Positions 14,655 to 47,649 of a stretch of DNA of 64,000 bases are shown here, in pieces. Source of the DNA: Streptomyces sp. NRRL F-5135 (GTDB lineage Bacteria > Actinomycetota > Actinomycetes > Streptomycetales > Streptomycetaceae); assembly GCF_000719775.1 (NCBI RefSeq), contig NZ_JOHR01000009.1, positions 1 to 64,000 of the forward strand. Reading direction: 5' to 3'. The position numbers and the translations under genes were made by a program. Below the pieces are notes generated by a model. The model had not been told where the DNA came from and ran no database searches. It saw only the letters and a program-made list of their open reading frames with translations. Numbering within the stretch: position 1 is the stretch's first letter; every line of letters begins with the position of its first letter.

Positions 14655-15833
14655 TCAGGGGTGCAGGAGGACCAGATCGTCCCTGTGTACGACCTCACGC
14701 TCGTACGCGGGGCCGAGTTCCCGCGCCAGCTCCCGGGTGGAGCGGCCGAGCAGCCGGGGCATCTCCCTGGCGTCGAAGTTGACCAGCCCGCGTGCGACGG
14801 CGCGGCCGGTGGTGTCCCGCAGTTCGACCGGGTCGCCCGCGCTGAAGTCGCCCTCCACGGCGGCGATCCCGGCGGGCAGCAGCGAGGTCCGGCGCTGGAC
14901 GACGGCCCGGACAGCGCCGTCGTCCAAGGTCAGCGCGCCCTGCGGGGTGGAGGCGTGGGCCAGCCAGAGCAACCGGCCCGTCGAGCGTCGTCCGGTGCTG
15001 TGGAAGTACGTTCCGGTGTCGCGGCCCGCGAGCCCGTCGGCGGCCCGGCTCGCCGAGGTCAGGACCACCGGTACGCCGGCCGCCGCGGCGATCCCGGCCG
15101 CCTCGACCTTGGTGACCATGCCGCCGGTGCCGACACCCGCCCGCCCGGCGCTGCCGATGGCGACGCCCGCCAGGTCGTCGGGGCCGCGCACCTCGGCGAT
15201 CCGGGAGGAGCCGGGCCTGCTGGGGTCGCCGTCGTAGAGCCCGTCGACGTCCGAGAGCAGGACGAGCAGGTCGGCGCGGACGAGATGGGCGACGAGGGCG
15301 GCCAACCGGTCGTTGTCGCCGAACCGGATCTCGTCGGTGGCGACGGTGTCGTTCTCGTTGACGACGGGGAGGGCGCCCATGCCGAGGAGTTGGTCGAGGG
15401 TGCGGTAGGCGTTGCGGTAGTGGGCGCGCCGGCTGGTGTCGTCCGAGGTCAGCAGCACCTGTCCGACGCGGACTCCGTAGCGGGCGAAGGAGGCCGTGTA
15501 GCGCGCGACCAGGAGTCCCTGGCCGACGCTGGCGGCGGCCTGCTGACGGGCCAGGTCGCGGGGGCGGCGGTCCAGGCCGAGCGGGGCGAGGCCGGCGGCG
15601 ATGGCGCCGCTCGACACCAGCACGATCTCGCGGCCTCCGTCGCCGTCCTCCCGGCCGCTGCCCGGGCCCCCGCCCCGGACGGCGGCGAGGACGTCGACGA
15701 GGGCGTCCACACGGTCCGCGTCGAGCCCCCCGGAGGCGGTCGTGAGCGAGGACGAACCGACCTTCACGACGATCCTCCGGGCCCCTGCCACGGCCTCCTG
15801 CCGGGTCACCGCCTCCTGCCGTGCCGCTGCCAC
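14655..15833 (-). CDS. proB: Glutamate 5-kinase with PUA domain
   Basis: 392 aa from GTG 15833; in-frame GTGs a few codons later are alternatives, and the leader repeats RQEAV twice. The kinase core has VVKVGSSSLT, the nucleotide-binding VSSGAIAAG, LLTSDD, and VNENDTVATDEIRFGDNDRLAALVA. A PUA domain follows from about residue 295. The enzyme phosphorylates L-glutamate in the first step of proline synthesis and is normally feedback-inhibited by proline. In related genomes obg sits next to proB; here a 13-kb wall-polymer island separates them. Confidence 0.96.
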   Translation of the reverse strand: MAAARQEAVTRQEAVAGARRIVVKVGSSSLTTASGGLDADRVDALVDVLAAVRGGGPGSGREDGDGGREIVLVSSGAIAAGLAPLGLDRRPRDLARQQAAASVGQGLLVARYTASFARYGVRVGQVLLTSDDTSRRAHYRNAYRTLDQLLGMGALPVVNENDTVATDEIRFGDNDRLAALVAHLVRADLLVLLSDVDGLYDGDPSRPGSSRIAEVRGPDDLAGVAIGSAGRAGVGTGGMVTKVEAAGIAAAAGVPVVLTSASRAADGLAGRDTGTYFHSTGRRSTGRLLWLAHASTPQGALTLDDGAVRAVVQRRTSLLPAGIAAVEGDFSAGDPVELRDTTGRAVARGLVNFDAREMPRLLGRSTRELARELGPAYEREVVHRDDLVLLHP

Positions 15834-16419: not shown

Positions 16420-18474
16420 ATGCCAGTAAAAGTGAGCGTCGTCATTCCGGTGTACAACCCGGGCAAGTACATCGACCCGTGCATCAAGTCTTTGCTGGCG
16501 CAGACGCTGCCCGCCGAGGACTTCGAGGTTCTCTTCGTCGACGACGGCTCCACGGACGACACTCCCGACCGGCTCGACAAGCTGGCGGTCGAGCACCCCC
16601 ACTTCCGGGTGATTCACATCCCCAACTCCGGCTGGCCCGGGAAACCGAGAAACATCGGCGTGGCCGAGGCGAAGGGAGAGTACGTCCAGTTCGTCGACCA
16701 GGACGACCACCTCGCCTCCGACGCGCTGCGACGGCTGTACGAGATGGGCCACCGCAACGGCTCCGACATCGTGATCGGCAAGGTCGCCTCCAATTTCCGC
16801 GGGGTGCCGCACGGCGTCTTCAAGGTCAACCGCGAGAAGTGCGACCTGAGCAACGCCCCGCTGTACGACAGCCTCACGCCGCACAAGATGTTCCGGACCG
16901 AGTTCCTGCGCGAGAACAACATCGCCTACCCCGAGGGCAAGCGGCGCCTCGAGGACCAGCTCTACATGATGGAGGCGTACTTCCCCGCCAAGGTCGTCTC
17001 GATCCTGGGGACCTACACCTGCTACTACTACTCGCGGCGTGACGACGGCCAGAACGCGGGCTCCGCGAAGATCGTGCCGTCCGGCTACTACGGCAACCTC
17101 CGCGAGGTCCTCAAGGTCGTCGTGGACAACACCGAGCCCGGCGAGTTCCGGGACCGCATCCTCCGCCGGTTCTACCGGGTGGAGATGCTGGGCCGGCTGA
17201 GCGAGCCGGGCATCCTGAAGTTCACGCCCGAGTTCGCCGACGAGATGATCGAGGCCATCCGCCCGATCGCCGACGAGTACATGAACGACGAGGTGCACAA
17301 CGGCCTCGGCGCGCTGACCCGGCTGCGCTCGACGCTCCTGCGCGCCGGTGACCGCGACGGGCTGATCGCCCTCGCGCGGTTCGCCTCGTCCGTCAAGGGC
17401 GCGGCCCACCTGGAGAAGTTCGAGTGGCAGTCCAACGGGAAGGCCCAGCTGTCGCTGTCCGTCCGGCTGGTCCAGGGCGAGGAGAAGAAGCCGCTGCGCC
17501 TGGTACGCCGGGACGGCCGCCACTTCCTGCACCCGGCCATCACCGAGCCGTTCCTGCCCGAGGGCGAACTCCTCGACATCACCGACGAACTGGACGGCTT
17601 CAAGGGCGAGCTGTCCATCCGCAACCGCGAGACGGCCGTGGAGTGGCCCTGCCCCGTCACGTACGCGACCGAGGTGGAGAAGCTCACCGCCCGGGACGGC
17701 GACGCGGCCGACGGCGACGAGGACACGTACGAGGTCGTCCTGCGCGGCAAGGGTGAGGTCACCAGCGAGGCGGTCAAGGGCCGCGGCCGGGTCTCCAAGG
17801 GGTTCTGGGACATCTGGGTGCCGGTCCGCGGCCTCGGCCTCGTCCGCAAGGCACGGCTCGGCGCCGACCGGGACCCGTCGGTGGACGCCGACTGCCTGCC
17901 GGCGGTGCTGGGTTCGCCGGCCCGCCCGGTCATCCCGTACTTCACGGACCCGCACGGCAACCTGACCCTCGATGTCGCGGGCCGCGCCAAGAAGCTGGCC
18001 ACCTACCTGGCCGACCGGCCCGTGCGGCGCATGCCCGGCCGCTCCGAACTGCGCATGGAGGTGTTCACGACGTCCAAGTCCGCCTCGTGGCCGGTGGAGT
18101 TGACGCTGACGTCGGCGGACGGCACCAAGCGGACCGCCCCCGCCACCCTGCGCCCCGACCAGGGCCGCGCCCACCTGTCCGTCCCCGCCCGGGTGCCGGA
18201 CCTGCCCGTCGGCACGGCTCGGCTCGCGGTACGGCTGGACGGCGCCAAGGGAGCCGAACTCCCCCTGTGCGACGTGCCGGTGGCGGGCGGCGGGCGGCTC
18301 CAGCTCGACCGCACCGACCTGGCGGAGGTCGACGCGATGATGGTCCGCCAGATGACCTCCAGGCGTCGCCGCGCCTCGCTGCGCCGGGCGCTGCGCACCG
18401 TCGGCGGCCCCGTCGTCCGGCGGCTGCCGAAGTCGGCCCGCAAGAAGGTGCGCCGCCTCGCGGCGCGTCTGTGA
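16420..18474 (+). CDS. GT2 glycosyltransferase, TarS-like, wall-polymer modification
   Basis: 684 aa from ATG 16420 (an ATG five codons upstream at 16405 is an alternative). The N-terminal GT-A domain (about 1-230) starts VKVSVVIPVYNPGKYI, has FVDDGSTDDTPDRL, the metal-binding DQDDH, and RRLEDQLYMMEAYF. About 400 further residues form an extracatalytic region rich in beta structure, ending in a very basic tail. This layout resembles staphylococcal TarS/TarP enzymes that glycosylate poly(ribitol phosphate). It is cytoplasmic, with the basic tail probably membrane-associated. It is the first gene of the island and is followed by rfbC. The donor sugar cannot be told from sequence. Confidence 0.82.
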   Translation: MPVKVSVVIPVYNPGKYIDPCIKSLLAQTLPAEDFEVLFVDDGSTDDTPDRLDKLAVEHPHFRVIHIPNSGWPGKPRNIGVAEAKGEYVQFVDQDDHLASDALRRLYEMGHRNGSDIVIGKVASNFRGVPHGVFKVNREKCDLSNAPLYDSLTPHKMFRTEFLRENNIAYPEGKRRLEDQLYMMEAYFPAKVVSILGTYTCYYYSRRDDGQNAGSAKIVPSGYYGNLREVLKVVVDNTEPGEFRDRILRRFYRVEMLGRLSEPGILKFTPEFADEMIEAIRPIADEYMNDEVHNGLGALTRLRSTLLRAGDRDGLIALARFASSVKGAAHLEKFEWQSNGKAQLSLSVRLVQGEEKKPLRLVRRDGRHFLHPAITEPFLPEGELLDITDELDGFKGELSIRNRETAVEWPCPVTYATEVEKLTARDGDAADGDEDTYEVVLRGKGEVTSEAVKGRGRVSKGFWDIWVPVRGLGLVRKARLGADRDPSVDADCLPAVLGSPARPVIPYFTDPHGNLTLDVAGRAKKLATYLADRPVRRMPGRSELRMEVFTTSKSASWPVELTLTSADGTKRTAPATLRPDQGRAHLSVPARVPDLPVGTARLAVRLDGAKGAELPLCDVPVAGGGRLQLDRTDLAEVDAMMVRQMTSRRRRASLRRALRTVGGPVVRRLPKSARKKVRRLAARL

Positions 18475-18560
18475 CGCCCCGCGCCGACGCCCGCCCCTCC
18501 TCCTCGCTCCCCCGAGCGGCACGAACAAGCACGATCAAGCACGAACAAGGACGTGATCAC

Positions 18561-19160
18561 ATGCGACAGCTCTCCGTCGAAGGCGCCTGGGTCCACGAAC
18601 CGAAGGTCTTCCCGGACAGCCGTGGCAGCTTCCACGAGTGGTTCAAGGCCCCCGGCTTCGTGGAGTCGACCGGCCACGCGCTGAACCTCGCCCAGGCCAA
18701 CTGCTCCGTCTCCAGCCGGGGCACGCTGCGCGGCATCCACTTCGCGGACGTGCCGCCGGGCCAGGCGAAATACGTCAAGTGCGTGAGAGGGGCCGTGCTC
18801 GACGTCATCGTGGACATCCGGGTCGGCTCCCCGACCTACCGCAGATGGGACGCCGTCCGGCTGGACGACGTGGACCACCACGCCGTCTACCTCGCCGAGG
18901 GGCTCGGACACGCCTTCGTGGCGCTGACGGACGACGCGACGGTGGTCTACCTCTGCTCCGAGGGGTACGCGCCCGAGCGCGAGCACGGCATCAACCCGCT
19001 GGACCCCGAGCTCGGCATCGAGTGGCCCGAGGGCATCACCCCGCTGCTGTCGGACAAGGACGCGGCGGCGCCGACCCTGGCGGAGGCCGAGGCCCAGGGC
19101 CTGCTCCCGTCGTACGAGGCCTGCCGCGCCTACTACGCGGAGCTGGCCGCGCGCGGCTGA
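18561..19160 (+). CDS. rfbC: dTDP-4-dehydrorhamnose 3,5-epimerase
   Basis: 199 aa from ATG 18561, with AAGGA about 9 nt upstream. The cupin motif RGTLRGIHF carries the catalytic histidine, followed by GQAKYVKCVRGAVLDVIVDIRVGSPTY and the tyrosine in EGLGHAFVAL context, as in RmlC. It converts dTDP-4-keto-6-deoxyglucose to the L-lyxo epimer in dTDP-L-rhamnose synthesis. It is the only rhamnose gene on the plus strand, separated from rfbD-B-A by a methyltransferase gene and a shared terminator, so the pathway is made from two opposing transcripts. Confidence 0.94.
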   Translation: MRQLSVEGAWVHEPKVFPDSRGSFHEWFKAPGFVESTGHALNLAQANCSVSSRGTLRGIHFADVPPGQAKYVKCVRGAVLDVIVDIRVGSPTYRRWDAVRLDDVDHHAVYLAEGLGHAFVALTDDATVVYLCSEGYAPEREHGINPLDPELGIEWPEGITPLLSDKDAAAPTLAEAEAQGLLPSYEACRAYYAELAARG

Positions 19161-19184
19161 CCTCCGCCGGGAGGCGGGCACACG

Positions 19185-19227
19185 GAAGGGGCCCGGGCGA
19201 CGTTCGACACGTCGCCCGGGCCCCTTC
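19185..19227. terminator. Bidirectional terminator between rfbC and the methyltransferase gene
   Basis: Perfect 18-bp stem, arms 19185-19202 and 19210-19227, 7-nt loop. It lies between two converging genes. Confidence 0.8.
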
Positions 19228-19304
19228 GCGCGGTTCTGTACAGCCTGAGCCGAACCGCCGTCCGGCACCGTCCGGACCGGGGCGGCGGCCCCGGCCGGAA
19301 CGGA

Positions 19305-20099
19305 TCAGCCGACCACGGCCTCGATCTGCCGCCGCAGCGGCACGAACGCGGAGCGCGGCCTGCGCAGGTTCCGCGCCCGCGTCAGGCCCTGCCAGAAGCC
19401 GGCCCGCAGCAGCGCCTCGGGCTGCACCGCGTTCTTGCGGACCAGCACCTCGTCGGGCACGTCCTGCGGGTCCGGTACGACGTACTCTTCGATGATCTTG
19501 TCGTAGGCGTCCTTCAGGACCGTGCTCTCCGGGTTGGCGCCGAAGATGGCCACGACCCCGGTCGGAGCGGTGTCGACGTCGACCACCAGCAGGTCCGGGC
19601 GGAAGCGCCGCAGCACCGTCGCCACCTTGTAGACGTCCCCGGCCCAGAACTTGGTGTGCCGGTCGCGCGCCGCCTCGTCCACGTCCCTCGGCAGCATGTC
19701 GTCCAGCACGATCACGCTGGACCACCGGGAGTGCTTCTCGACGTTCATGAAGTCGCGCAGCGCGTACTCGAAGAGGTGCATGCCGTCGATGAACGACAGC
19801 TCCAGCTTCGGGTCGCCGCCGAGAAGATTGACCGGATCCCGACGTGCGAGCGCGCGGAACGGGTTGCGCCCGTTGCGCAGGTGGATCAGCGGGTCCTTGC
19901 GGGCGAAGAAGTCGTCGCTGGTCGACTTCACGAGGTGGACGTCACAGCTGATGTCCGTGACGACCTTGAAGGCCGGGTCGACGGCCACCGAAGGCACCCG
20001 GGAGAGCGCCAGGCTGCGCCCGTCATTGACCCCGATCTCCAGGTAGTTGCGGGGCTTGTACACACGGTGCAGGTGGCGCAGGAAGCCGTGGCGGTCCAC
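19305..20099 (-). CDS. Class I SAM-dependent methyltransferase (Methyltransf_24/CmcI-like)
   Basis: 264 aa from GTG 20099, with AAGGG about 8 nt upstream. Motif I is YLEIGVNDGRSL. FIDGMHLFEYALRDF and VIVLDDMLP carry the aspartate/histidine residues that bind a divalent metal in TylF/CmcI-type O-methyltransferases. The neighbours make dTDP-L-rhamnose, so a sugar O-methylation (for example of rhamnose in the wall polymer) is a reasonable inference but not shown. A perfect 15-bp dyad lies directly upstream (20111-20150), hinting that it is regulated separately from rfbD. Confidence 0.75.
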   Translation of the reverse strand: MDRHGFLRHLHRVYKPRNYLEIGVNDGRSLALSRVPSVAVDPAFKVVTDISCDVHLVKSTSDDFFARKDPLIHLRNGRNPFRALARRDPVNLLGGDPKLELSFIDGMHLFEYALRDFMNVEKHSRWSSVIVLDDMLPRDVDEAARDRHTKFWAGDVYKVATVLRRFRPDLLVVDVDTAPTGVVAIFGANPESTVLKDAYDKIIEEYVVPDPQDVPDEVLVRKNAVQPEALLRAGFWQGLTRARNLRRPRSAFVPLRRQIEAVVG

Positions 20100-20110
20100 G
20101 TAGAGGGCCC

Positions 20111-20150
20111 TTCACTGAGAATCAACAACGGAGGCTTGATTCTCAGTGAA
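20111..20150. promoter_or_regulatory. Perfect 15-bp inverted repeat upstream of the methyltransferase gene
   Basis: TTCACTGAGAATCAA (20111-20125) and its exact complement (20136-20150) flank a 10-nt spacer. The arms are AT-rich in a very GC-rich genome. The dyad lies 11 bp upstream of the GTG at 20099, so it is in the leader or promoter. It could be an operator or, as RNA, a hairpin near the ribosome site; it could also terminate rfbD transcripts. Confidence 0.65.
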
Positions 20151-20248
20151 CTTAGTGGGCCCCTCGACCATCCGTAAACATCTACCGGTCAGTAACAGCC
20201 ACGTGTCGCCAGGCTTCCAGCTCAGCGCGGTGTGCGATCTCCCACGGG

Positions 20249-21148
20249 TTACGCGGTCGGCGCCCCCGCGCCGCGCTCGGCCTTCAGCAGGGCGGGAAAC
20301 GCCTCCTGAAGCGCCGCGCGCCAGTCCCGGATCGGCTCGATCCCGGCCGCCCGCCACCGCTCGTGGCCCAGCACGCTGTACGCGGGCCGGGGCGCGGGCC
20401 GGACGAACGCCTCACTGGTGGTCGGCCGGACCCGCTCGGGGTCCGCGCCGAGCAGCCGGAAGATCTCCCGTGTGAACGAGAACCAGGTGGTCTCGCCGCC
20501 GCTGGTGCCGTGGTAGATCCCGGGCGCGGCCGTGCCGTCGAGGGCCGCCCGGCCGAGCCGGACCAGCCGGTCCGCCAGGTCCCCGGTCCAGGTGGGCTGA
20601 CCGCGCTGGTCGTCCACCACGTCCAGGGTGTCCTTGACGCCCTCCAGCTTGATCATCGTACGGACGAAGTTGCCGCCGCCCGCGCCGTACAGCCAGGCCG
20701 TGCGCACCACGTAACCGCGCTCGGGGAGCGTGTCGAGCACGGCGCGCTCCCCGGCCAGCTTCGTCCGGCCGTACGCGCTGCGCGGGGCCGGCGGGGTGTC
20801 CTCCCCGTACGGGGCCGAGGCGTCGCCCGCGAACACGTAGTCCGTCGAGACCTGGACGAGGACGGCGCCGGAGGCCGCGCACGCCTCGGCCAGGACCCGG
20901 GGGCCCGTGCCGTTGACGGCGAGCGCCTCGTCCTCCTTGGCCTCGGCGTCGTCCACGGCCGTCCAGGCGGCGCAGTTGACCACCACGGCCGGGCCGTGTT
21001 CCGCCAGGGCGGCACGTACCGAAGCGGGGTCCGTGATGTCCAGGGCGGTACGGTCCAGGCCTACCGCGCTCTCCCCGGCGGCGGCCAGCTGGGCCAGGAG
21101 GTCCTGGCCCAGCATCCCGCCGGCGCCGGTGACCAGCCAGCTGCTCAC
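20249..21148 (-). CDS. rfbD: dTDP-4-dehydrorhamnose reductase
   Basis: 299 aa from GTG 21148; the start overlaps the rfbB stop as GTGA, indicating translational coupling. The Rossmann motif GAGGMLGQ opens the protein, VNCAAWTAVDDAE and VSTDYVFAG are the family signatures, and YGRTKLAGE holds the catalytic Tyr-x3-Lys. It reduces dTDP-4-keto-L-rhamnose to dTDP-L-rhamnose with NAD(P)H. Last of the coupled rfbA-rfbB-rfbD set. Confidence 0.95.
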   Translation of the reverse strand: MSSWLVTGAGGMLGQDLLAQLAAAGESAVGLDRTALDITDPASVRAALAEHGPAVVVNCAAWTAVDDAEAKEDEALAVNGTGPRVLAEACAASGAVLVQVSTDYVFAGDASAPYGEDTPPAPRSAYGRTKLAGERAVLDTLPERGYVVRTAWLYGAGGGNFVRTMIKLEGVKDTLDVVDDQRGQPTWTGDLADRLVRLGRAALDGTAAPGIYHGTSGGETTWFSFTREIFRLLGADPERVRPTTSEAFVRPAPRPAYSVLGHERWRAAGIEPIRDWRAALQEAFPALLKAERGAGAPTA

Positions 21149-22152
21149 AGGGCGGCACGCTCCTTCAGCGGCTCCCACCAGGCGCGGTTGTCGCGGTACC
21201 ACTGGACGGTCTCGGCCAGGCCCGTGGCGAAGTCCTTGCGCGGCTCGTAGCCCAGCTCCGTGCGGATCTTGGTGCAGTCGACGGAGTAGCGGCGGTCGTG
21301 GCCCTTGCGGTCGGTGACGTACTCGACGCTGGTGTCCCAGTCCGCCCCGCACGCCTCGAGCAGCAGCCCGGTCAGCTCCTTGTTGGACAGCTCCGTGCCG
21401 CCGCCGATGTTGTAGACCTGCCCGGCGCGGCCCTTCGTGCGGACCAGTTCGATGCCCTGGACGTGGTCGTCGATGTGCAGCCAGTCCCGGACGTTGCCGC
21501 CGTCGCCGTAGAGCGGCACCTTCTTGCCGTCCAGCAGGTTCGTGATGAACAGCGGGATGACCTTCTCGGGGAAGTGGTGGTGCCCGTAGTTGTTGGAGCA
21601 GCGGGTCACCCGCACGTCCAGGCCGTGGGTGCGGTGGTAGGAGAGCGCGATCAGGTCGCTGGACGCCTTCGCCGAGGAGTAGGGCGAGTTGGGCTCCAGC
21701 GGGTGGGTCTCCGGCCACGAGCCCTCGTCGATCGAGCCGTAGACCTCGTCGGTGGAGATGTGCACGAAGGTCTTGACGCCCGCGCGGTGCGCGGCGTCGA
21801 TCAGCGTGTGCGTGCCCACCACGTTCGTGCGGACGAACTCCGCGCCGCCGTCGATGGAGCGGTCGACGTGCGACTCGGCGGCGAAGTGCACCACCTGGTC
21901 GTGCTCGGCCATCAGCTTGCCGACCAGCTCGGGGTCGCAGATGTCGCCCTGGACGAAGGCGAAGCCGGGCCGGTCGCGCACCTCGTCGAGGTTGGCCGGA
22001 TTGCCCGCGTAGGTGAGCTTGTCGAGCACCGTGATCTCGACGTCGCCGGGCCCCTGGGGGCCCAGAACCGTACGGACGTAGTGCGAGCCGATGAAGCCGG
22101 CACCGCCGGTGACCAGGATCCTGGTGGGGCGGGAGGCGTCGGAACGAGTCAT
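21145..22152 (-). CDS. rfbB: dTDP-glucose 4,6-dehydratase
   Basis: 335 aa from ATG 22152, which overlaps the rfbA stop (ATGA). NAD-binding TGGAGFIGSHY, HFAAESHVDRSI, the catalytic ISTDEVYGSI and YSSAKAASD-like YSSAKASSD (Tyr-x3-Lys) are all present. It makes dTDP-4-keto-6-deoxy-D-glucose, the branch point for rhamnose and other deoxysugars. Normal length. Confidence 0.96.
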   Translation of the reverse strand: MTRSDASRPTRILVTGGAGFIGSHYVRTVLGPQGPGDVEITVLDKLTYAGNPANLDEVRDRPGFAFVQGDICDPELVGKLMAEHDQVVHFAAESHVDRSIDGGAEFVRTNVVGTHTLIDAAHRAGVKTFVHISTDEVYGSIDEGSWPETHPLEPNSPYSSAKASSDLIALSYHRTHGLDVRVTRCSNNYGHHHFPEKVIPLFITNLLDGKKVPLYGDGGNVRDWLHIDDHVQGIELVRTKGRAGQVYNIGGGTELSNKELTGLLLEACGADWDTSVEYVTDRKGHDRRYSVDCTKIRTELGYEPRKDFATGLAETVQWYRDNRAWWEPLKERAAL

Positions 22153-23225
22153 GAGGAGATCTGCACCTTGCTGTGGTCGCCGAGGACGAGTCGGTGGGCG
22201 GACGGGTTGCGGGGCGCGGGCGTGATCTCGACATCGCGGCCGATCAGCGAGGCCTCCACCCGGCGCACGCCGGTGAGGGACGAGTTCCGCAGAACGATGG
22301 AGTACTCGATCTCGCTGTCCTCGATCCTGCACCCTTCGGAGACCGACGTGAAGGGGCCGATGTAGGCGTCGCTGACGACCGTGCCGGCGCCGATGATCGC
22401 GGGGCCGACGATCCGGCTGCCGGTGACCTGGGCGCCCGCCTCGATCCTGACCCGCCCTATGATCTCCGACGCCTCGTCGACGGAGCCGTCGAGGCAGGGC
22501 TCCACGGTCTCCAGCACGGAGCGGTTGACCTCCAGCATGTCGGTGACGTTGCCGGTGTCCTTCCAGTACCCGGAGATGGTCGTGGAACGGACGTCCCGGC
22601 TCTGGTCGATCAGCCACTGGATGGCGTGCGTGATCTCCAGCTCACCGCGCCAGGACGGCTCGATGGAGCGCACGGCCTCGTGCACGGCCGGGGTGAAGAG
22701 GTAGACGCCGACGAGCGCCAGATCGCTCTTGGGCTGCTTGGGCTTCTCCTCCAGCGCCACCACCCGGCCGTCGCCGTCGAGTTCGGCGACGCCGAACGAG
22801 GTCGGGTTGGGGACCCTCGTCAGCAGGATCTGCGCGTCGGGCCGGTCCGCCCGGAAGGCGTCCACCAGGCCGGTGATGCCACCGACGATGAAGTTGTCCC
22901 CGAGGTACATGACGAAGTCGTCGTCACCGAGGAACTCCCGCGCGATGAGAACGGCGTGCGCCAGCCCCAGCGGGGCGTCCTGCTGGAGGTAGGTGACCTT
23001 TATCCCGAACCGGGAGCCGTCCCCGACCGCCTCGCGGATCTCGTCGGCCGTGTCGCCGACGATGACGCCGACCTCCGTGATACCCGCGTCCGCGATGGCC
23101 TCGAGACCGTAGAAGAGCACGGGCTTGTTGGCCACCGGCACGAGCTGTTTCGCGGAGGTGTGTGTGATGGGGCGCAGGCGGGTGCCCGCCCCACCGGACA
23201 GTACAAGAGCCTTCACGTTTCTCAT
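22149..23225 (-). CDS. rfbA: Glucose-1-phosphate thymidylyltransferase, long form
   Basis: 358 aa. LSGGAGTRLRPITHTSAKQLVPV is the nucleotide-binding start of the family (17 or fewer shown elsewhere in motif form: GGAGTRLRP). At 358 residues with a C-terminal left-handed beta-helix region (SRIVGPAIIGAGTVVSDAYI), it belongs to the long RmlA type found in actinobacterial antibiotic-sugar clusters such as StrD, not the 290-residue enterobacterial type. It makes dTDP-glucose. First of three coupled genes; the start may instead be the GTG four codons in. A short hairpin lies in the leader at 23243-23264. Confidence 0.94.
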   Translation of the reverse strand: MRNVKALVLSGGAGTRLRPITHTSAKQLVPVANKPVLFYGLEAIADAGITEVGVIVGDTADEIREAVGDGSRFGIKVTYLQQDAPLGLAHAVLIAREFLGDDDFVMYLGDNFIVGGITGLVDAFRADRPDAQILLTRVPNPTSFGVAELDGDGRVVALEEKPKQPKSDLALVGVYLFTPAVHEAVRSIEPSWRGELEITHAIQWLIDQSRDVRSTTISGYWKDTGNVTDMLEVNRSVLETVEPCLDGSVDEASEIIGRVRIEAGAQVTGSRIVGPAIIGAGTVVSDAYIGPFTSVSEGCRIEDSEIEYSIVLRNSSLTGVRRVEASLIGRDVEITPAPRNPSAHRLVLGDHSKVQISS

Positions 23226-23469
23226 CCCAGGAGAGTTTTCAACGCTGTCCGGGCATCGCCCGACAGTCAGACTTTACCGACGATTTCCGGCGTGGACCGC
23301 AGCCGGTCACCTCCGGCGGGTGAACTGACCGGTTCGAGGTGGCTCGGAAGGGCCGTCCACAGGAGCGCCCGGACCGTCCCCGGACCGCCCACGAGGGCTC
23401 GCGGAAGGCGCCCAGAAGGCCCTCGGAAGACCCCCGGAAGGCCCTCGAGCGCCTTCGGGCGCCAACTCC

Positions 23470-24777
23470 TCAGGCTTTCTGTCCGGTTGGCCGCGAGGCG
23501 GTGGCCGACACCGCCGCGGCCGCCTTCGCGGTCCTCCCCCCGGCCCGGGCCCAGGCGCGGGTCAGGCCCGTACGGCGGATCCGCGCACGCACCCGCCGGG
23601 CCACCCGCCGCGCGGGCGACCTGCGCCGCCGCACGACCTTGGGCGGGTGGATGCTCTCCAGGCCCGGCTTGCCGATCCAGTCCGGCACGGTCACCTCGAA
23701 CGAGGCGTCCTTCAGTCCGCTGCCCTTCTCCCCGAAGTGGGGGAAGGCGAGGTACGGAGTCCGGTCGCGGCCCCGGTGGACCACCTCGGGTCTGGTCCCG
23801 TCCCGGACGAAGACGAGCACGTCCCGCAGCAGGTCGAACCGCCCGAGCGCGACGCACTCCAGCCGCAACCGTTCCGAGACCTTGATCAGCCGCGCCACGC
23901 CCGGTCCCCAGTAACGCCGCATCAGGGGCGCGGCCAGCTCCATCTTCTGCCGCTGGACCTCCTCCGGCTGCTTCATGAAGCCGGGCGGGAACTGCTGGAG
24001 CAGGCCGACCGTGAAGGGTCTGACCATCAGCCGGTCCCGCTTGGCGCCCGGCGGCACGATGTCCGCGATGAGCTTCATCAGCGCGCCCACGGCCTCGAAG
24101 CGCATCGTGTGGTCGCCGCTCTTGGTCACGTGCTTGCCGTCGTCACGGCCGACGAGGTAGTAGCAGGTGTAGTCGGAAATCACCGAGACGCCCCCGCCCC
24201 GGAGGTACGCCTCCATCGTGAAGAGGGCGTCCTCACCGGTCCGCATCCCCTCGTCGAACCGCAGGCCGAGCCGTTCGACCAGCTCGCGCCGGAACAGCTT
24301 CTGGGCGCTGAGGGTGTAGATGACCTTCGAGTTGTAGACGTCGACGCGCTCGGCCGTCCGGCCCCACATCGACGACGGCGCCCCCCTGTTGACTCCCTCC
24401 ACCTTGCCGAGGACCACGTCGGTGCCGGCCCGGTCGGCCATGGCCACCATGCGCTCCAGCGCCTCCGGGCCCAGGTAGTCGTCGGCGTCCAGGAAGAAGA
24501 CGTACCTCCCCCTGGCCAGGGCGAGGCCCACGTTGCGCGGGCCGCTCGGGCCCCCCGAGTTGGCCTGTCGCACCACCTTGGTCGGGATGGCGGTCGAGGC
24601 GGCGAACTTCTCCAGATATGCCCCCGTGCCATCGGTCGAGCCGTCGTCGACGGCGATGACCTCGATACGGTGAGCCATGGTCTGCGACTCCACCGACTCC
24701 AGGCAGCGGACCAGGTAGGGCATCGCTTCGTATGCCCCGACGATCACACTCACATCAGGAACTGTCATCTCGTTCAT
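23470..24777 (-). CDS. GT2 glycosyltransferase, TarS-like, second copy
   Basis: 435 aa from ATG 24777 (ATG 24765 is an alternative). GT-A domain: VPDVSVIVGAYEAMPYL, VIAVDDGSTDGT, FFLDADDYLG, then TGEDALFTMEAYL. It shares the pattern of the GT2 at 16420 (for example DVVLGKVEGVNRG against DIVIGKVASNFRG) but has only a short extracatalytic region and a highly basic tail of about 60 residues. It probably glycosylates the same wall polymer. It is transcribed separately from rfbA (244 bp gap) and from the TagF-like gene (terminator at 24953-24992). Donor unknown. Confidence 0.82.
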   Translation of the reverse strand: MNEMTVPDVSVIVGAYEAMPYLVRCLESVESQTMAHRIEVIAVDDGSTDGTGAYLEKFAASTAIPTKVVRQANSGGPSGPRNVGLALARGRYVFFLDADDYLGPEALERMVAMADRAGTDVVLGKVEGVNRGAPSSMWGRTAERVDVYNSKVIYTLSAQKLFRRELVERLGLRFDEGMRTGEDALFTMEAYLRGGGVSVISDYTCYYLVGRDDGKHVTKSGDHTMRFEAVGALMKLIADIVPPGAKRDRLMVRPFTVGLLQQFPPGFMKQPEEVQRQKMELAAPLMRRYWGPGVARLIKVSERLRLECVALGRFDLLRDVLVFVRDGTRPEVVHRGRDRTPYLAFPHFGEKGSGLKDASFEVTVPDWIGKPGLESIHPPKVVRRRRSPARRVARRVRARIRRTGLTRAWARAGGRTAKAAAAVSATASRPTGQKA

Positions 24778-24952
24778 CGAAATGACAGACAGGCACCACC
24801 CTTTGTTGGTTGTCTGATCACGATCGTCTGAATCTGTGATGCCGGTCACATAAAAGTACCGACATGTCCCGGCCTGCTCCGCCCCTGCCGTCCGCGCGCC
24901 CCCGTGCGCACGTGCTCCACACGTGGTCCGCGCGCGTGGTCCGCGCACGGAA

Positions 24953-24992
24953 ACGGCCCGGCGGCGCGCTCGGACGCGTACCGCCGGGCCGT
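24953..24992 (-). terminator. Terminator of the TagF-like gene
   Basis: Perfect 12-bp arms ACGGCCCGGCGG (24953-24964) and its complement (24981-24992), 16-nt loop, about 50 bp after the stop on the minus strand. Confidence 0.7.
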
Positions 24993-25043
24993 GGGCCCTC
25001 ATCGGGGCCGTGCGGGCCCTTTCCCGTTCCTGTGCGTTCCGGC

Positions 25044-27212
25044 TCAGCCGCCCACGGGTCCCACGGGCGAGTCCAGATCGTTGTTCTCGGGCTCCGTCGG
25101 GGCGTTCTCCGAACTCTCCAGGCCCTCCTCGGCCCGCGGGCCGACCGGCGCCTGGTCGTCCGGCGCGGGCGCCTCCAGCGGCTCCACCAGACGCTGCTCC
25201 ACCCCCAGGTTGCGGGCCTCCGCCTTGGCGGCCAGCGCCCGCGTGGCCGCGTTGAACCGCTCCATCGAGGTCGGCTCGTCCGGCCCCAGCAGATACCGCT
25301 TCAGCTCGGCGCGGGCCCCGGCCAGCCGGTCGGCGGCCGGATCGGCGACCGCCGCGAGCAGCTCGTCCAGCTCGGCGGCGCTGTTGGAGAGGATCACGGC
25401 GGCGCGCACGGCGGTGTTCTGCCGCTTGAACTCGGCGGCGCCCAGCTCCGCCGAGTCGGTCACCGCGTAGGGCTTCCCGCTGGCGATGAAGTCGGAGACC
25501 ACGCTGGAGATGTCGGAGACCATCGCGTCCGACTCGTTGAAGCAGTCGTACAGCCGCGGCTCCGCGCCGTCGATGACCCGGTGCTCCCACCAGCCGAAGG
25601 ACCGCCAGTAGGCGGTGTTCCACTCGTTCCGCAGCCGGGTCAGCTCCGCCTGGCGCGCCGGGTCGGCCTTCGACTCACGCGACTCCTCGGCCTCGTCCCG
25701 GCCGCTGTCGGCGACGCCCGACAGCTCGGTCAGCCGCGCCTGGATCCGGTTCAGCTCGGAGCGCGCCGCGCTCATGTCCGCGCGCGAGGCCGCCGCCTCC
25801 TCGGCCCACCGGGTGTCGCCGGCCCGCTCGGCCGCGGCCTTCTCCACCATCGCCGTGATCCGGGCGTGCACGGCCTTCGCCTTGGGGCTGCGCGTACCGG
25901 TGAAGGGGTGCGGCTTGTACAGCAGCCGGACCGGGGGCTCGGCCGTCAGCAGCCGCTTGACGATGTTCTCGCCCGCCAGCAGCAGCGAGGTGTTGCCCGG
26001 GTTGTCGTCCCAGCCCTCCCAGGTGGGCGCGTACAGGATCGTGGGGATCGCGTTCTTCGGGGCGCCCGTCGCGGGCCGGATGGGCGCCAGCTGCGGCCGG
26101 CCCACCTCGACGATGTCCTCGTCCCGCACCCCGACGTCGGCCAGCGCGTAGCGGTCGCGGCCGGCCCGGCCCGCCGTCCAGACCTCGTCGTACGCCTTGC
26201 TGTAGGGGTTGACGCTGGCCAGCTTGTCGCTGTCGCCGTGGCCGATGAAGACGTGCTTCATCGTCGGGACGCGCAGCATGTGGATGTTCTTGCCGACGTT
26301 GGCCGCGTACAGCGCGACGCGCACGCTCGACAGGTCCAGGTTCATCAGGTGCACCCCGCCCGGGACGCAGAGCACCGGCACGGACGTCGGGGCCAGCTGA
26401 CTCGCGATGGCCCGCTCCCGCAGCACGATCAGCGGCCGTCCGTCGATCTGGTCCATGGTCTCCAGCCACATGTTGACCTGGTACGCGGAGTCCTTGGAGC
26501 CGGAGAAGTACAGGATGACGGTCGGCCGGTAGTCGGCCAGCCACTCGTCCACGGCCGCGAGCACCTTGTCCGCGGCCGGCACCAGCCGGGCCGGGCGCAG
26601 GTACGGCAGCAGGGCGAGGATGTAGAGGACGGCGAGCGCCAGGGTCAGGCCGAGCCCCACGTAGCCGTAGAGGTTGTCCCGCGTCTGCACCGTGACGATC
26701 ACGCCGGCCATGGCGAAGAGGTCCAGGTGCAGCATCTTCTCGGCGGAGCGGTGCAGCAGGCCGCGCGGCGGCGCGTCGGGGATCCGGATCCCGGTGAGGT
26801 CGATGTTGCGGGTGACCACGGGCAGCCGCCGGCGCAGCCGGAGCAGGGTGACGATCGCGCCGTGCGGTGCCTGGAGGCCGTAGAAGACGAGGACCACGAC
26901 CACGGTCACGTAGAAGATCCGGTCCTCACCGAGCCCGGACCTCGCCACCATCAGTGCCATCAGCATCTGGCGGATCAGGAACCGGATCGACAGCCCGGCC
27001 CGTACCTTGGCCAGCCTGTTGACCAGATAGCTGCCGCGCTTGTGCAGGTACGTGTCCGCGAGATACGTCACGGCGGCCGCCGCGGCGAAGAGCCAGAGGT
27101 TCGGAATTATCGCGGCGAGCATGACGCACGGGAAACCCAGTCCCAGAAGAAGTGCTGCTGCCAGCTCTGATCCGCTGCCCACACGGGCCAGGCGAATGGC
27201 TGTCGAAATCAC
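25044..27212 (-). CDS. TagF-like CDP-glycerol/ribitol phosphotransferase with N-terminal membrane domain
   Basis: 722 aa from GTG 27212. The first ~200 residues contain several membrane segments. The C-terminal catalytic part has the Glyphos_transf hallmarks: IGHGDSDK, LYAPTWEGWDD, LLYKPHPFTG and FNESDAMVSDISSVVSDFI. An inserted charged helix of about 90 residues (AEEAAASRADMSAARSELN onward) splits it and may be a coiled coil. TagF/TarL-family enzymes polymerise polyol phosphates from CDP-polyols onto a lipid-linked primer at the inner membrane face. The next gene upstream is the likely CDP-polyol synthase. From memory, a homologue (SCO2592) belongs to the polydiglycosylphosphate locus of S. 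coelicolor. Confidence 0.85.
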   Translation of the reverse strand: MISTAIRLARVGSGSELAAALLLGLGFPCVMLAAIIPNLWLFAAAAAVTYLADTYLHKRGSYLVNRLAKVRAGLSIRFLIRQMLMALMVARSGLGEDRIFYVTVVVVLVFYGLQAPHGAIVTLLRLRRRLPVVTRNIDLTGIRIPDAPPRGLLHRSAEKMLHLDLFAMAGVIVTVQTRDNLYGYVGLGLTLALAVLYILALLPYLRPARLVPAADKVLAAVDEWLADYRPTVILYFSGSKDSAYQVNMWLETMDQIDGRPLIVLRERAIASQLAPTSVPVLCVPGGVHLMNLDLSSVRVALYAANVGKNIHMLRVPTMKHVFIGHGDSDKLASVNPYSKAYDEVWTAGRAGRDRYALADVGVRDEDIVEVGRPQLAPIRPATGAPKNAIPTILYAPTWEGWDDNPGNTSLLLAGENIVKRLLTAEPPVRLLYKPHPFTGTRSPKAKAVHARITAMVEKAAAERAGDTRWAEEAAASRADMSAARSELNRIQARLTELSGVADSGRDEAEESRESKADPARQAELTRLRNEWNTAYWRSFGWWEHRVIDGAEPRLYDCFNESDAMVSDISSVVSDFIASGKPYAVTDSAELGAAEFKRQNTAVRAAVILSNSAAELDELLAAVADPAADRLAGARAELKRYLLGPDEPTSMERFNAATRALAAKAEARNLGVEQRLVEPLEAPAPDDQAPVGPRAEEGLESSENAPTEPENNDLDSPVGPVGG

Positions 27213-27394
27213 GGAATACCTGCTCCAGAGCGTGCCGGCTGTTGATATTGCGACGAGAGCGTGAAGGTCCGGGGCCTTTCGTCCGGGTCTTTCCGAGCCG
27301 CTCCGCACGGCAGGACCCCGGCTCCACGAATTCGGGCCCCCGTGGTTCCCGCGTCTGCGGCGTCCACGGAGGCCCGTATCAAGATTGTCGAGAA

Positions 27395-28909
27395 TTATGA
27401 CACATCTTCCTGGCGGTCCAGGACGGCGGCCAGCGCCTGCTCGAAGTCCGACGCCTCGGACGCGCCCCTGGTCGGGTCCTGCTGCCGTACGTCGATGACG
27501 TGTCCGGTCAGCTCGGAGAGCAGCACGTCCAGGGAGGTCCGCGCGACCGCCTCGGACGACAGCAGCGACCCCTCGGGCTCCTGGCCGAAGGCCTTGGTGC
27601 GCATCGGAGTCGCCGTACGCTCCGGGTTCACGCAGTTCACCCGGATGCCCTCGGCGGCCCACTCGTCCGACAGCGCCTGGGTGAGGTTGACCATGGCGGC
27701 CTTCGTGGACGAGTACAGGCTGTACTCGGCGCGCCCGCGCGTGTAGCTGCTGGAGGTGTAGAGCAGCAGCTGGCCCTTGGTCTCCGCCAGGTACTTGTAC
27801 GAGGCGCGGGCGATCTGCACCGGCGCCAGGTAGTTGACGTTCAGCGCCTCCTGGATGGTGGTGTTGTCCGTCTCGGCCAGCTTGCCGATGCGCAGGACGC
27901 CCGCCGTGTTGATCACGTAGTCGATGCGGCCCGTCTCGCCGTACGCGCGGGACAGCGCGTCGTCGACGTGCTCGGGGTTCTCCACGTGCGTGCCGGTGGT
28001 GGAACGGCCCAGCGCGTACACCGCGGCGCCGTAGGACTCGGCGAGCTTGCAGATGTCCGCGCCGATGCCGTACGACCCGCCGAAGACGACCAGGGTCTTG
28101 CCGGTCAGCAGCTCGCGGTAGGCCTCGTCGGAGGACTGCTGCGGCGCGGCGGCGGACGCGAGCTGGAAGAGCTTGTCGGCGATGAAGACGTCGACCGGCT
28201 GGGTGACCTTCATGTTGTACTCGTCGCCCGCGACGACGTGGATCGGCACGTCCGGCAGGTACTTGAGCACCACGGAACAGTCGTCGGTGGCCTGGAAGTT
28301 GGGGTCACCGGCGGCGACCTCGTACGCCCTGCGGATGGTGGACAGCTTGAACGCCTGCGGGGTCTGGCCGCGCCGCAGCCGGGAGCGGTCGGGGACGTCC
28401 GTGATGAACTCGCCGTCCTCGCCGTGCGTCCGGGTGACGATGATCGTGTCCGCCGACGGGATCGCCACGTCCACCGCCTGGTAGCGCTCCAGCGCGTCCA
28501 CGCAGTCCTGGATCACGCGCTGCGACAGCAGCGGACGGACGGCGTCGTGGAACAGGACGTTGCGGTCCTCGCCCTCGGCCAGCCCCTCGCCCAGCGCCGC
28601 GATGGCGCGCTCGGTGGTCTCGTTGCGCGTCGCGCCGCCCTCGATGACCCGGCTGACCTTGCTGAGCCCCGCCTTCGCGACGATCTTCTCCACGTCGCCC
28701 GTGTAGCCCGGAGCCATCAGCACGATCACGTCGTCGATCGACTCGGCCTGCTCGAAGATCCACAGGGTGTGCTCGATGACCGCCTTCCCCGCGATCTTCA
28801 GCAGCTGCTTCGGGATCGACAGGCCCACGCGCTGACCGGTACCGCCTGCCAGGACGACGGCGGTGGTGCGGGGCTTCGCGGACGACGCGGAAGCGGGAGT
28901 TCCAGACAC
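27395..28909 (-). CDS. Bifunctional cytidylyltransferase/SDR oxidoreductase (CDP-ribitol synthase type)
   Basis: 504 aa from GTG 28909. Residues about 14-245 are an IspD/TarI-like cytidylyltransferase (LAGGTGQRVGLSIPKQLL, FHDAVRPLL, TPQAFKL). Residues about 265-495 are a short-chain dehydrogenase (VFGGSYGIGADI, NTAGVL, YSLYSSTKAA with the Tyr-x3-Lys pair). This fusion is the architecture of Haemophilus Bcs1, which reduces ribulose-5-phosphate and makes CDP-ribitol; TarI and TarJ are the separate counterparts. It is not the MEP-pathway IspD. It supplies the substrate for the TagF-like gene 182 bp downstream. Ribitol rather than another polyol is inferred from the architecture. Confidence 0.87.
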   Translation of the reverse strand: MSGTPASASSAKPRTTAVVLAGGTGQRVGLSIPKQLLKIAGKAVIEHTLWIFEQAESIDDVIVLMAPGYTGDVEKIVAKAGLSKVSRVIEGGATRNETTERAIAALGEGLAEGEDRNVLFHDAVRPLLSQRVIQDCVDALERYQAVDVAIPSADTIIVTRTHGEDGEFITDVPDRSRLRRGQTPQAFKLSTIRRAYEVAAGDPNFQATDDCSVVLKYLPDVPIHVVAGDEYNMKVTQPVDVFIADKLFQLASAAAPQQSSDEAYRELLTGKTLVVFGGSYGIGADICKLAESYGAAVYALGRSTTGTHVENPEHVDDALSRAYGETGRIDYVINTAGVLRIGKLAETDNTTIQEALNVNYLAPVQIARASYKYLAETKGQLLLYTSSSYTRGRAEYSLYSSTKAAMVNLTQALSDEWAAEGIRVNCVNPERTATPMRTKAFGQEPEGSLLSSEAVARTSLDVLLSELTGHVIDVRQQDPTRGASEASDFEQALAAVLDRQEDVS

Positions 28910-29198: not shown

Positions 29199-30635
29199 TC
29201 AGAAGGGGTTGAAGTCGTCGAACTCCCGCTGCGCCTCGTCCCGCTCGGCCTCCCGCTCCCTGCGCCGCTGCACCGCCGGCCGGAGCGCTTCCATGCGGTG
29301 GTCCTCGCCCCGTCGGCCCAGCATCTCGGCGCCCGCCATCACCGTCGGCTCCCAGTCGAAGACCACGGCGTTGTCCTCGGCGCCGATCGCCACGCCGTCG
29401 CCCGCGCGGGCCCCGGCCTTCATCAGCTCCTCCTCGACACCGAGCCGGTTCAGCCGGTCCGCGAGGTAGCCGACGGCCTCGTCGTTGTTGAAGTCGGTCT
29501 GGCGCACCCAGCGTTCGGGCTTCTCGCCGCGCACGCGGAAGAGCCCGTCGTCCTCGCGGGTGACGGTGAAGCCCGCGTCGTCCACGGCCTTGGGCCGGAT
29601 GACGATCCGGGTCGCCTCTTCCCTGGGCCTGTCGGCACGGGCCCTGGCGACGATCTCGGCGAGCGCGAAGGAGAGCTCCTTCAGCCCCTTGTGGGCCACC
29701 GCGGAGACCTCGAAGACGCGGTAGCCGCGCTCCAGGAGGTCGGGGCGGATCATGTCCGCGAGATCCTGGCCGTCCGGGACGTCGACCTTGTTGAGCACGA
29801 CGACGCGCGGCCGGTCGTCCAGGCCGCCGTACTGCGCCAGCTCCGCCTCGATCGTGTCGAGGTCGGAGACCGGGTCCCGGTCCGGCTCCGCCGTCGCCGT
29901 GTCCAGCACGTGGACGAGCACCGAGCAGCGTTCGACGTGGCGCAGGAACTCGAGGCCCAGCCCGCGTCCCTGGCTGGCGCCCGGGATCAGGCCGGGTACG
30001 TCCGCGACGGTGTAGACGGTGGCGCCGGCGGTGACCACCCCCAGGTTGGGGACCAGCGTGGTGAACGGGTAGTCGGCGATCTTGGGCTTGGCCGCGGAGA
30101 GCACGGAGATCAGCGAGGACTTGCCGGCGCTCGGGTAACCGACGAGCGCCACGTCGGCGACGGTCTTGAGCTCCAGGACGACGTCACCCGCGTCCCCCGG
30201 CTCACCGAGCAGCGCGAAGCCGGGGGCCTTGCGGCGGGCCGAGGCCAGCGCCGCGTTGCCGAGCCCGCCCCGGCCACCCTCGGCGGCGACATAGGTGGTG
30301 CCGTGGCCCACCAGGTCGGCGAGGACCTCACCGCGCGAGTCGAGGACGACGGTGCCGTCCGGCACCGGCAGCACCAGGTCCTGACCGTCCTTGCCGGAAC
30401 GGTTGCCGCCCTCGCCGGGCTTGCCGTTGGTGGCCTTGCGGTGCGGGGAGTGGTGGTAGTCCAGCAGCGTCGTCACCGACTGGTCGACGACGAGGATCAC
30501 ATCGCCGCCCCGGCCGCCGTTGCCCCCGTCGGGCCCGCCGAGCGGCTTGAACTTCTCCCGGTGCACGGAGGCGCAGCCGTGGCCTCCGTTACCCGCGGCG
30601 ACGTGCAGCTCGACGCGGTCCACGAAGGTGGTCAT
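29199..30635 (-). CDS. obgE: Obg-family GTPase
   Basis: 478 aa from ATG 30635, with GGAGG about 9 nt upstream. The glycine-rich OBG fold ([14 protein letters not shown]) is followed by the G domain: GYPSAGKSS (G1), [10 protein letters not shown] (G3), NKVD (G4). A C-terminal OCT domain and a short acidic tail close the protein. Obg GTPases act in 50S assembly and growth control; in S. coelicolor Obg is known to affect aerial mycelium formation. It is the last gene of the rplU-rpmA-obgE operon. Confidence 0.96.
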
Positions 30636-42392: not shown

Positions 42393-42396
42393 GGCG

Positions 42397-44568: not shown

Positions 44569-44677
44569 TGCGACCCCCCACGGGCGAGTTGGGACCTCGG
44601 GCGCGCGCCGCGCCGGTACGTACGGCCGGGCGCGCCGCCGGGCGAGGGGGCGCGCCGGGACGGGTGGGGAGTCGGGC

Positions 44678-45352
44678 TCACAGTCGCTTGACCCCCTTGA
44701 TCCGTCCTGCCCGTGCCGCGCGGTTCCTGGCGGCGCGCAGGCGCAGTCCGCCGCGCTGGCCGCCGATGGTCAGCCCCGTGCCCGAGGCGAGCCAGCCGGC
44801 GGCGACGTCGCCGCCACCACCGCCACCGCTCTGGGTCTCGGCGAGCGGATCGTTCTCCGCCTTTCTCGCCAGGGCCATGACCAGCGGAATGGTGAACGGC
44901 GCGAGGAGCAGGTCGTAGACGGCGGCGGTGAACAGCAGGCCGCCCAGGCCGACATGGCGGGCGGCGGTGTCCCCGACGAGGGCGCCGACCGCCGCGTACA
45001 GCAGGGTCGAGCCGAGCGCCGCCGCGACGACCGCGATCATGGGGCCGAGGGCCGTGCGCATCTGGCCCTTCTCGGGCTTGGCGAGTCCCGCCAGGTAGCC
45101 GATCACGCAGAGCACCAGCGCGTACCGGCCCGCCGCGTGGTCGGCGGGCGGCGCCAGGTCGGCGAGCAGCCCGGCGCCGAATCCGATCAGCGCGCCGCTG
45201 ACATGCCCGTACACGAAGGCCAGCGCGAGCACGACGAGCAGCATCAGGTCGGGGACGGCCCCGGGGAGCTGGAGCCGGGCGAGGATGGACACCTGGACGA
45301 CCAGGGCGACGACGATGAGCGTGGTCGAGAGCAGGACGCGGTTGAAGCGCAT
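44678..45352 (-). CDS. mreD: Rod shape-determining protein MreD
   Basis: 224 aa, five or six membrane helices starting with VLLSTTLIVVALVVQVSIL. FVYGHVSGALIGFGAGLLAD is typical of MreD. The C-terminal 50 residues are hydrophilic with GGGGGG. It lies 11 bp downstream of mreC and links the Mre scaffold to RodA/PBP2. Confidence 0.93.
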   Translation of the reverse strand: MRFNRVLLSTTLIVVALVVQVSILARLQLPGAVPDLMLLVVLALAFVYGHVSGALIGFGAGLLADLAPPADHAAGRYALVLCVIGYLAGLAKPEKGQMRTALGPMIAVVAAALGSTLLYAAVGALVGDTAARHVGLGGLLFTAAVYDLLLAPFTIPLVMALARKAENDPLAETQSGGGGGGDVAAGWLASGTGLTIGGQRGGLRLRAARNRAARAGRIKGVKRL

Positions 45353-45363
45353 GGGAATCAGCT

Positions 45364-46425: not shown

Positions 46426-46571
46426 GTGCGGCGGCCGTGCCTTCCTCGTAGGAATGATTCTGCCTGTATGTCAACGATCCGCCGTACGCGAGGTCATGGC
46501 CTTGGATCGCGGGTCCCCCGGCCCGGCGGCCCGGGGGGGAGGCACACATCGGAACGACGGAGAGGGACCGC

Positions 46572-46595: not shown

Positions 46596-46617
46596 CGTCA
46601 CCTCGGCCCCTCGGACC

Positions 46618-47649
<1,032 letters not shown>

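Follow-up and report, generated by a model that had tools for sequence, protein, structure and literature searches.

A Streptomyces wall teichoic acid locus between obgE and proB with an exchangeable cassette for a probably rhamnose-type, O-methylated decoration

The closest described counterpart of the locus considered here comes from Streptomyces griseus, whose wall teichoic acid (WTA) is a ribitol-phosphate polymer by nuclear magnetic resonance and bears a teichuronic-acid-like glycan that requires the TarS-like protein UtrC (Zhao et al. 2025, PMC13274773). According to the same account, WTA glycans serve as the receptors by which umbrella toxins choose their Streptomyces targets (PMC13274773). 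The S. griseus WTA/teichuronic acid (TUA; utr) locus includes the genes for L21 (SGR_4953), L27 (SGR_4954), TarIJ (SGR_4956) and TagF (SGR_4957); the order read from these locus tags recurs in a 64,000-nucleotide stretch of Streptomyces sp. NRRL F-5135 (contig NZ_JOHR01000009.1, positions 1 to 64,000), hereafter the window, as rplU, rpmA, obgE, a cytidylyltransferase/reductase fusion gene and a TagF-like gene. There, the 12.5 kb separating proB and obgE holds a WTA-type core together with a cassette of 6-deoxyhexose genes. As described, the utr locus resembles the window in its TarS-like glycosyltransferase and in accessory genes that vary between species, but its glycan genes make amino-uronic sugars, unlike the rml cassette found here (PMC13274773). 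The WTA of S. antibioticus is recorded as containing some 3-O-methyl-glucose (PMC13274773).

In S. coelicolor, SCO2589-SCO2592 have been published as WTA genes, and the descriptions of them in PMC3937824 and PMC6629963, on which our comparison relies, leave an rml/methyltransferase cassette unmentioned. PMC11481543 describes the polydiglycosylphosphate of this species as a minor glycopolymer. Both polymers can thus occur in a single strain, and the contrast with polydiglycosylphosphate drawn in a first-pass annotation of the window is not a matter of either/or. Staphylococcus aureus TarI/TarJ, TarL and TarS perform the same steps as those proposed here, and TarI and TarS are close matches in the PDB; TarI and TarJ are separate proteins in that species, in contrast to the fusion in the window, and the polymerase candidate here, unlike that of S. 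aureus, is a distant GT-B enzyme with membrane helices. S. aureus TarJ is not known to be a short-chain dehydrogenase/reductase (SDR). By gene order, SCO2589-SCO2592 presumably lie near obg and proB. Exchange of WTA cassettes has reportedly been seen among the teichoic acid gene cassettes of Bacillus subtilis (PMC8753576), which consist of other genes in another genus.

The core of the window locus is therefore already known, its order matching the S. griseus ribitol-phosphate WTA locus; the apparently new part is a cassette comprising rml genes, a methyltransferase (MT) and a TarS-like glycosyltransferase (GTA). The best reading, to which we assign a probability of roughly 0.6, is an obgE-proB WTA locus with a self-contained six-gene 6-deoxyhexose decoration cassette beside the core, in which rhamnose would be added to poly(ribitol-phosphate) and methylated by MT. 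What the sequences themselves show is the set of genes with their intact motifs, gain and loss by block, occurrence at three kinds of site, and the replacement of MT by a MycE/TylE-type enzyme. The main text of PMC13274773 does not contain the terms rhamnose, rml or methyltransferase, although Figure 3C may draw such genes unlabelled. A literature search turned up nothing published on rhamnose cassettes for the WTA of Streptomyces; it left the older structural chemistry of actinomycete walls mostly uncovered, so the chemistry may already be in print. Methylated sugars do occur in actinomycete walls.

The first-pass annotation had proposed a wall-glycopolymer island. A CDP-ribitol-type, TagF-like and TarS-like locus with a full dTDP-L-rhamnose set and an O-methyltransferase is indeed present, but it is the usual Streptomyces WTA locus, as described in PMC13274773 and PMC3937824, and not a strain-specific island. 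The underlying gene list (the fusion, a TagF-like protein, two TarS-like GT2 enzymes, rmlABCD and an O-methyltransferase-type gene) was confirmed with Pfam and curated models, every gene named in 16420..28909 being present at or very near its original placement:

29199..30635, minus strand: obgE, locus anchor (PF01018, 180 bits)
27395..28909, minus strand: IspD-like cytidylyltransferase/SDR fusion, probable CDP-ribitol synthase of TarIJ/Bcs1 type (PF01128, 153 bits; adh_short, 105 bits)
25044..27167 (start uncertain, 27167-27212), minus strand: candidate polymerase of TagF-like type, with membrane helices at the N terminus followed by a GT-B domain (PF04464, 27.1 bits)
23470..about 24777, minus strand: GTB, TarS-like GT2, usual core member (GT2 plus TarS_linker, 46 bits)
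22149..23225, minus strand: rmlA, glucose-1-phosphate thymidylyltransferase, long form (TIGR01208, 466 bits, cut-off 320)
21145..about 22152, minus strand: rmlB, dTDP-glucose 4,6-dehydratase (TIGR01181, 432 bits, cut-off 365)
20249..21148, minus strand: rmlD, dTDP-4-dehydrorhamnose reductase (TIGR01214, 298.5 bits, cut-off 224)
19305..20099, minus strand: MT, class I O-methyltransferase (PF13578, Methyltransf_24, 29.1 bits, cut-off 26.3)
18561..19160, plus strand: rmlC-type epimerase, convergent to MT (TIGR01221, 160.5 bits, cut-off 155.75)
about 16420..18474, plus strand: GTA, long TarS-like GT2 with TarS linker domain, candidate rhamnosyltransferase (PF22181, 116.8 bits)
14655..15833, minus strand: proB, locus anchor (AA_kinase and PUA)

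The six cassette genes run rmlA-rmlB-rmlD-MT> <rmlC-GTA, with MT and rmlC convergent. The first version of a composition-based gene caller called GTA, MT, rmlA, the TagF-like gene and the fusion gene (G+C content at third codon positions, 0.89-0.96), and a version with start choice called all eleven genes from proB through obgE. Catalytic motifs of the locus proteins are intact and conserved across the homologues compared.

Among the core proteins, the first domain of the fusion, compared by sequence with the PDB, matched a B. subtilis-type ribitol-5-phosphate cytidylyltransferase best (4jis, 121 bits; 6xhp, 112.8). Chains labelled methylerythritol phosphate cytidylyltransferase, 3f1c (117 bits) and 2vsh (110), which we take to be TarI-like, also matched, and the next IspD scored 95.6. 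The C-terminal SDR reductase motifs are intact, YxxxK and the glycine motif being kept in 90/90 homologues. GTB carries DADD and ED motifs in 72/72 homologues and matches TarS 5tze at 142.5 bits. For the TagF-like protein, the PF04464 score exceeds the cut-off of 22.1 over the whole protein, with no single stretch passing alone; the genome-wide profile search left the protein unmatched, and profile comparison aligned 33 columns. A single-sequence search of the PDB gave no match, and the only hits of a profile search, 26 ribosomal eL8 chains, were judged spurious and discarded. Its AlphaFold model (mean confidence, pLDDT, 78.1) combines membrane-type helices at residues 1-190 with a Rossmann-type GT-B region at 213-651, predicting the GT-B fold of TagF, which is common to other GT-B enzymes too. 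Foldseek placed TagF 3l7l third (E 2.5e-6), below two UDP-N-acetylglucosamine 2-epimerases; a second aligner (VIA-align) ranked generic GT-B glycosyltransferases first, and TagF was absent among its 50 rows listed. Residues H310, H420, D552, S554 and S555 are kept in 103/103 homologues. We regard the TagF-like assignment as right, though weak by sequence, and take the core to be a probable ribitol-phosphate WTA locus.

Within the cassette, RmlA, B, C and D all score above their curated cut-offs for the dTDP-L-rhamnose pathway, RmlC by about 5 bits. L-rhamnose is supported because RmlD lies well over its threshold and is the sole TIGR01214 match above cut-off in the whole genome. GTA matches 8bz4 (168.5 bits) and TarS 5tz8 (155.7) in the PDB and keeps DxDD and ED motifs in 51/51 homologues; like GTB, it combines a GT2 domain, a TarS linker domain and DxD and ED motifs, which are TarS-type features. 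By model and alignment, MT has the class I O-methyltransferase fold and motifs of the S-adenosylmethionine- and metal-binding type. It had no sequence match among solved structures, MycE and TylE included (single sequence at E 1, profile at E 0.1), and Foldseek placed MycE at rank 45 (E 1.7e-4), suggesting that the two have fold class alone in common.

Some results weigh against this reading. The main caveat on the ribitol core is that the cytidylyltransferase domain falls below both relevant NCBIfam cut-offs, with 169.3 bits for ispD (TIGR00453, cut-off 181.3) and 164.6 for ribitol-5-phosphate cytidylyltransferase (NF001183, cut-off 166); these models would place it between IspD and the ribitol enzyme, slightly nearer ispD, whereas the PDB comparison favours TarI. 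Another concerns the sugar, which might be another 6-deoxyhexose, such as 6-deoxy-D-allose or 6-deoxy-L-talose, and not L-rhamnose. In favour of this alternative, RmlC barely passes TIGR01221 and its nearest PDB chain is a putative C3-epimerase of a D-allose pathway (263.5 bits), which we take to be ChmJ-type, with M. tuberculosis RmlC scoring lower at about 234. However, another chain, labelled as a 3,5-epimerase, is nearly equal at 260.7 bits, the ChmJ-type match may reflect kinship within Streptomyces, and RmlD exceeds its own model by 74 bits; we judge a different 6-deoxyhexose to be improbable.

We compared named loci across the genus, the best 80 of 322 confirmed, which were fetched via the TagF-like protein and in several of which the contig ends early. 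Genes in relatives were called with a simple in-house caller, and presence was scored at thresholds of at least 70% identity for MT, 60% for GTA and 50% for GTB. The anchors obgE and proB were found in 74/80 and 68/80 loci, the fusion in 80/80 (the loci having been picked via the neighbouring TagF) and GTB in 70/80. The cassette is gained and lost as a block. All six genes (rmlA, B, D, MT, rmlC, GTA) were present in 18 of the 80 and none of them in 53. The first-pass annotation had proposed checking whether Streptomyces genomes gain or lack rfb and methyltransferase genes jointly, and with exceptions they do: rmlD occurs in 25 named loci, 22 of which contain MT, and the 55 loci without rmlD have neither MT (0/55) nor GTA (0/55). 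Incomplete cases include L043 and L089, with four cassette genes before the contig end; L047 and L106, full except for a GTA at 60% identity; L090, full except for MT; L099, without window-type MT and without a close GTA; L111, with rmlB, D, C and GTA upstream of rplU; and L091 and L119, with rmlC alone near rplU. On a tree of 61 loci, taken from a total of 81 that includes the window besides the 80 named ones, the cassette genes switch state 4-6 times, and a phylogeny-controlled linkage test found only 2 supported independent pairs and was thus powerless.

Searches of 121 sampled Streptomyces genomes gave a similar picture. The TagF-like protein has matches in 94, of which 60 are at 59% identity or more, and the idea of a strain-unique island was rejected on this ground. 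MT has 24 matches in 23 genomes: 21 have rmlD no more than 5 kb away, 21 have GTA at such a distance, and 18 have both. The six incomplete cases comprise three in which the assembly is fragmented and the missing gene sits on a different contig (G027, G096, G109) and three real splits (G010, and G022 twice). A core TagF ortholog is present in all 23 MT-bearing genomes compared with 60/121 overall (Fisher p 7e-9, uncorrected for kinship). A foreign origin of the cassette by composition was rejected, its G+C content being 0.702 compared with 0.713 for the window.

A different methyltransferase occupies the MT slot, between rmlD and rmlC/GTA, in L099, L135 and L140. The L140 protein matches TylE 8ia9 (E 3.2e-66) and MycE 3ssm (E 3.7e-64) in the PDB, and that of L135 is 72% identical to it; by homology, a MycE/TylE-type sugar O-methyltransferase thus replaces MT in the same slot of three modules. 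MycE and TylE are macrolide sugar O-methyltransferases that act on a 6-deoxy-allose-derived sugar, which adds to the case for a 6-deoxyhexose other than L-rhamnose. FG-GAP repeat protein genes lie within or beside several rml modules (L047:14155-15462, L106, L111, L136), sometimes at the MT position.

Cassette-free loci carry a pyruvyl transferase gene, a gene for a 922-residue true TagF or a further TagF-like gene, or else have no gene between GTB and proB. Counts of accessory genes among the 80 named loci are as follows:

Pyruvyl transferase: 15 loci, 1 with rmlD
922-residue TagF: 12 loci, 0 with rmlD
Second TagF-like protein: 13 loci, 0 with rmlD
GT4: 16 loci, 4 with rmlD
PhoD-like phosphatase/phosphodiesterase: 16 loci, 0 with rmlD
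FG-GAP protein: 15 loci, 3 with rmlD

Strict mutual exclusion of alternative cassettes was rejected, L136 and L140 carrying a pyruvyl transferase gene as well as the cassette. The second TagF-like gene, about 45% identical to the core one, is convergent to it (L078:13585-15666, minus strand, and 12 other named loci). The PhoD-like gene sits between obgE and the fusion gene (L078:6294-7712, L107 and others); PhoD degrades teichoic acids in B. subtilis.

The cassette occupies three kinds of site: the obgE-proB interval, a position upstream of rplU (two cases, both missing MT) and an unlinked chromosomal locus. The last was found by genus-wide searches and has an MT about 65% identical to that of the window. 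Its 17 distal regions (L121-L135, L137 and L139) were selected by matches and therefore illustrate arrangement, not frequency. The same convergent order, rmlA-rmlB-rmlD-MT> <rmlC-GTA, is complete in 12 of them; otherwise L126 lacks rmlA, L134 lacks rmlC, L135 has the substitute methyltransferase, L137 lacks rmlB, C and D, and L139 has MT and GTA only. SpoIIE-type phosphatase genes flank this locus on one side and coxG/coxE/xdhC-type genes on the other, and fusion and TagF-like genes were not recognised in the regions fetched. GTA there is 34-39% identical to the window protein, yet gene set and arrangement are kept. Trees built from 46 rows set the two homes apart (one change for rmlD, two for MT), except for L145, in which a distal-type MT adjoins a WTA-locus module.

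A family-wide search found MT in 51/297 genomes and 3/17 genera. All ten non-Streptomyces MT genomes contain a TagF ortholog (60-66% identity). In the second genus, whose regions (L141-L150) were likewise selected by matches and show arrangement, MT lies in the obgE-fusion-TagF locus in 7/10 MT-positive genomes, where rml genes and GTA accompany it in different orders; MT directly follows TagF in L142 and L150, L141 is a distal-type module, and rml genes were not recognised in L146 and L149, which have MT. Because the set is kept while its order changes, the cassette genes probably share a function. This companionship bears on a further alternative, in which the main role of the rml genes would be in making a natural product, or some other glycan, encoded elsewhere in the genome, their location here being chance. 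The uniqueness of RmlD means that any other rhamnose use must draw on the cassette enzyme; however, the rml genes travel with their own TarS-like glycosyltransferase and methyltransferase through three kinds of site and a second genus, which makes chance location very improbable.

Some second-genus loci carry extra genes (L143:5481-9296; similar in L144, L147 and L148), in L143 encoding two GT2 enzymes, a DUF2304 protein and a DUF6020 protein, a set that presumably resembles a multi-component extracytoplasmic glycosylation system. The cassette could alternatively build a separate or extended rhamnose glycan joined to WTA, in place of single sugars, with O-methylation capping the chain, much as S. 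griseus WTA carries a teichuronic-acid-like chain started by the TarS-like UtrC (PMC13274773). The two TarS-like enzymes in the window, and the two GT2 genes and DUF2304 gene added in second-genus relatives, would fit such a chain; against it, the Streptomyces cassette itself has one glycosyltransferase, and GTB occurs in most loci whether the cassette is there or not. We consider a separate chain rather unlikely and retain the decoration of poly(ribitol-phosphate) with a methylated rhamnose.

Under that preferred reading, the fusion protein would make CDP-ribitol, the membrane-attached TagF-like enzyme would polymerise ribitol-phosphate and GTB would glycosylate the polymer. RmlA, B, C and D would supply dTDP-L-rhamnose, GTA would transfer rhamnose to the ribitol-phosphate chain, and MT would O-methylate it. 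The substrates, order of steps and attachment site, like the polyol, the sugar and the methyl position, are inferred from the predicted enzymes.

Export and attachment to peptidoglycan would be performed by genes elsewhere. Pfam scans of 40 window open reading frames, which covered short frames only partly and included three that are probably not genes, bear out the earlier observation that genes for an ABC transporter, a flippase, TagO and TagA are absent from the window. The LytR-CpsA-Psr (LCP) gene once suggested to encode the attaching enzyme is a poor candidate:

5647..7581, minus strand: LCP and LytR_C protein (Pfam), which no result links to the island

It is one of ten LCP genes in the genome and the lowest-scoring (34 bits, compared with 142-172). 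Five others lie within 11 kb on another contig (C2:292059-303147), close to one GT2 gene and one amidase-2 gene, a group similar to the S. venezuelae LCP cluster holding cglA described in PMC11481543. The genome encodes two PF00953 enzymes and has 15 ABC2_membrane matches, and no match to TagA (PF03808) was found in it. One ABC2_membrane match (C1:300223) adjoins an ABC ATPase gene, with an LCP gene about 7 kb away, and is a candidate exporter.

Elsewhere in the window, mreB, mreC, a class B penicillin-binding protein gene and a RodA/FtsW gene lie at 41196-47649, on the strand of the WTA core and 10-17 kb away from it, which puts genes for wall elongation next to those for the wall polymer. 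A promoter and terminator scan returned nothing above chance level, and an Rfam scan gave no match at the gathering cut-off.

More broadly, and only tentatively, the obgE-proB/rplU region may be a wall serotype locus of Streptomyces and its kin, in which a fixed ribitol-phosphate core is combined with exchangeable cassettes (methylated rhamnose, pyruvyl transferase, a second polymerase, TUA genes) and diversity is kept by umbrella toxins or phages that read the wall glycan; the rml-MT-GTA cassette would then specify a receptor type, rhamnose capped by a methyl group, that has yet to be described chemically from its genes. An exchangeable cassette with a clear chemical prediction, namely a rhamnose-type sugar, O-methylation on or off, and two unrelated methyltransferases for one slot, would make wall chemistry predictable from genomes, and would make receptor diversification testable by cassette deletion and swap. 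Relatives with the same block, other blocks or none would help to explain how the surface read by toxins and viruses varies.

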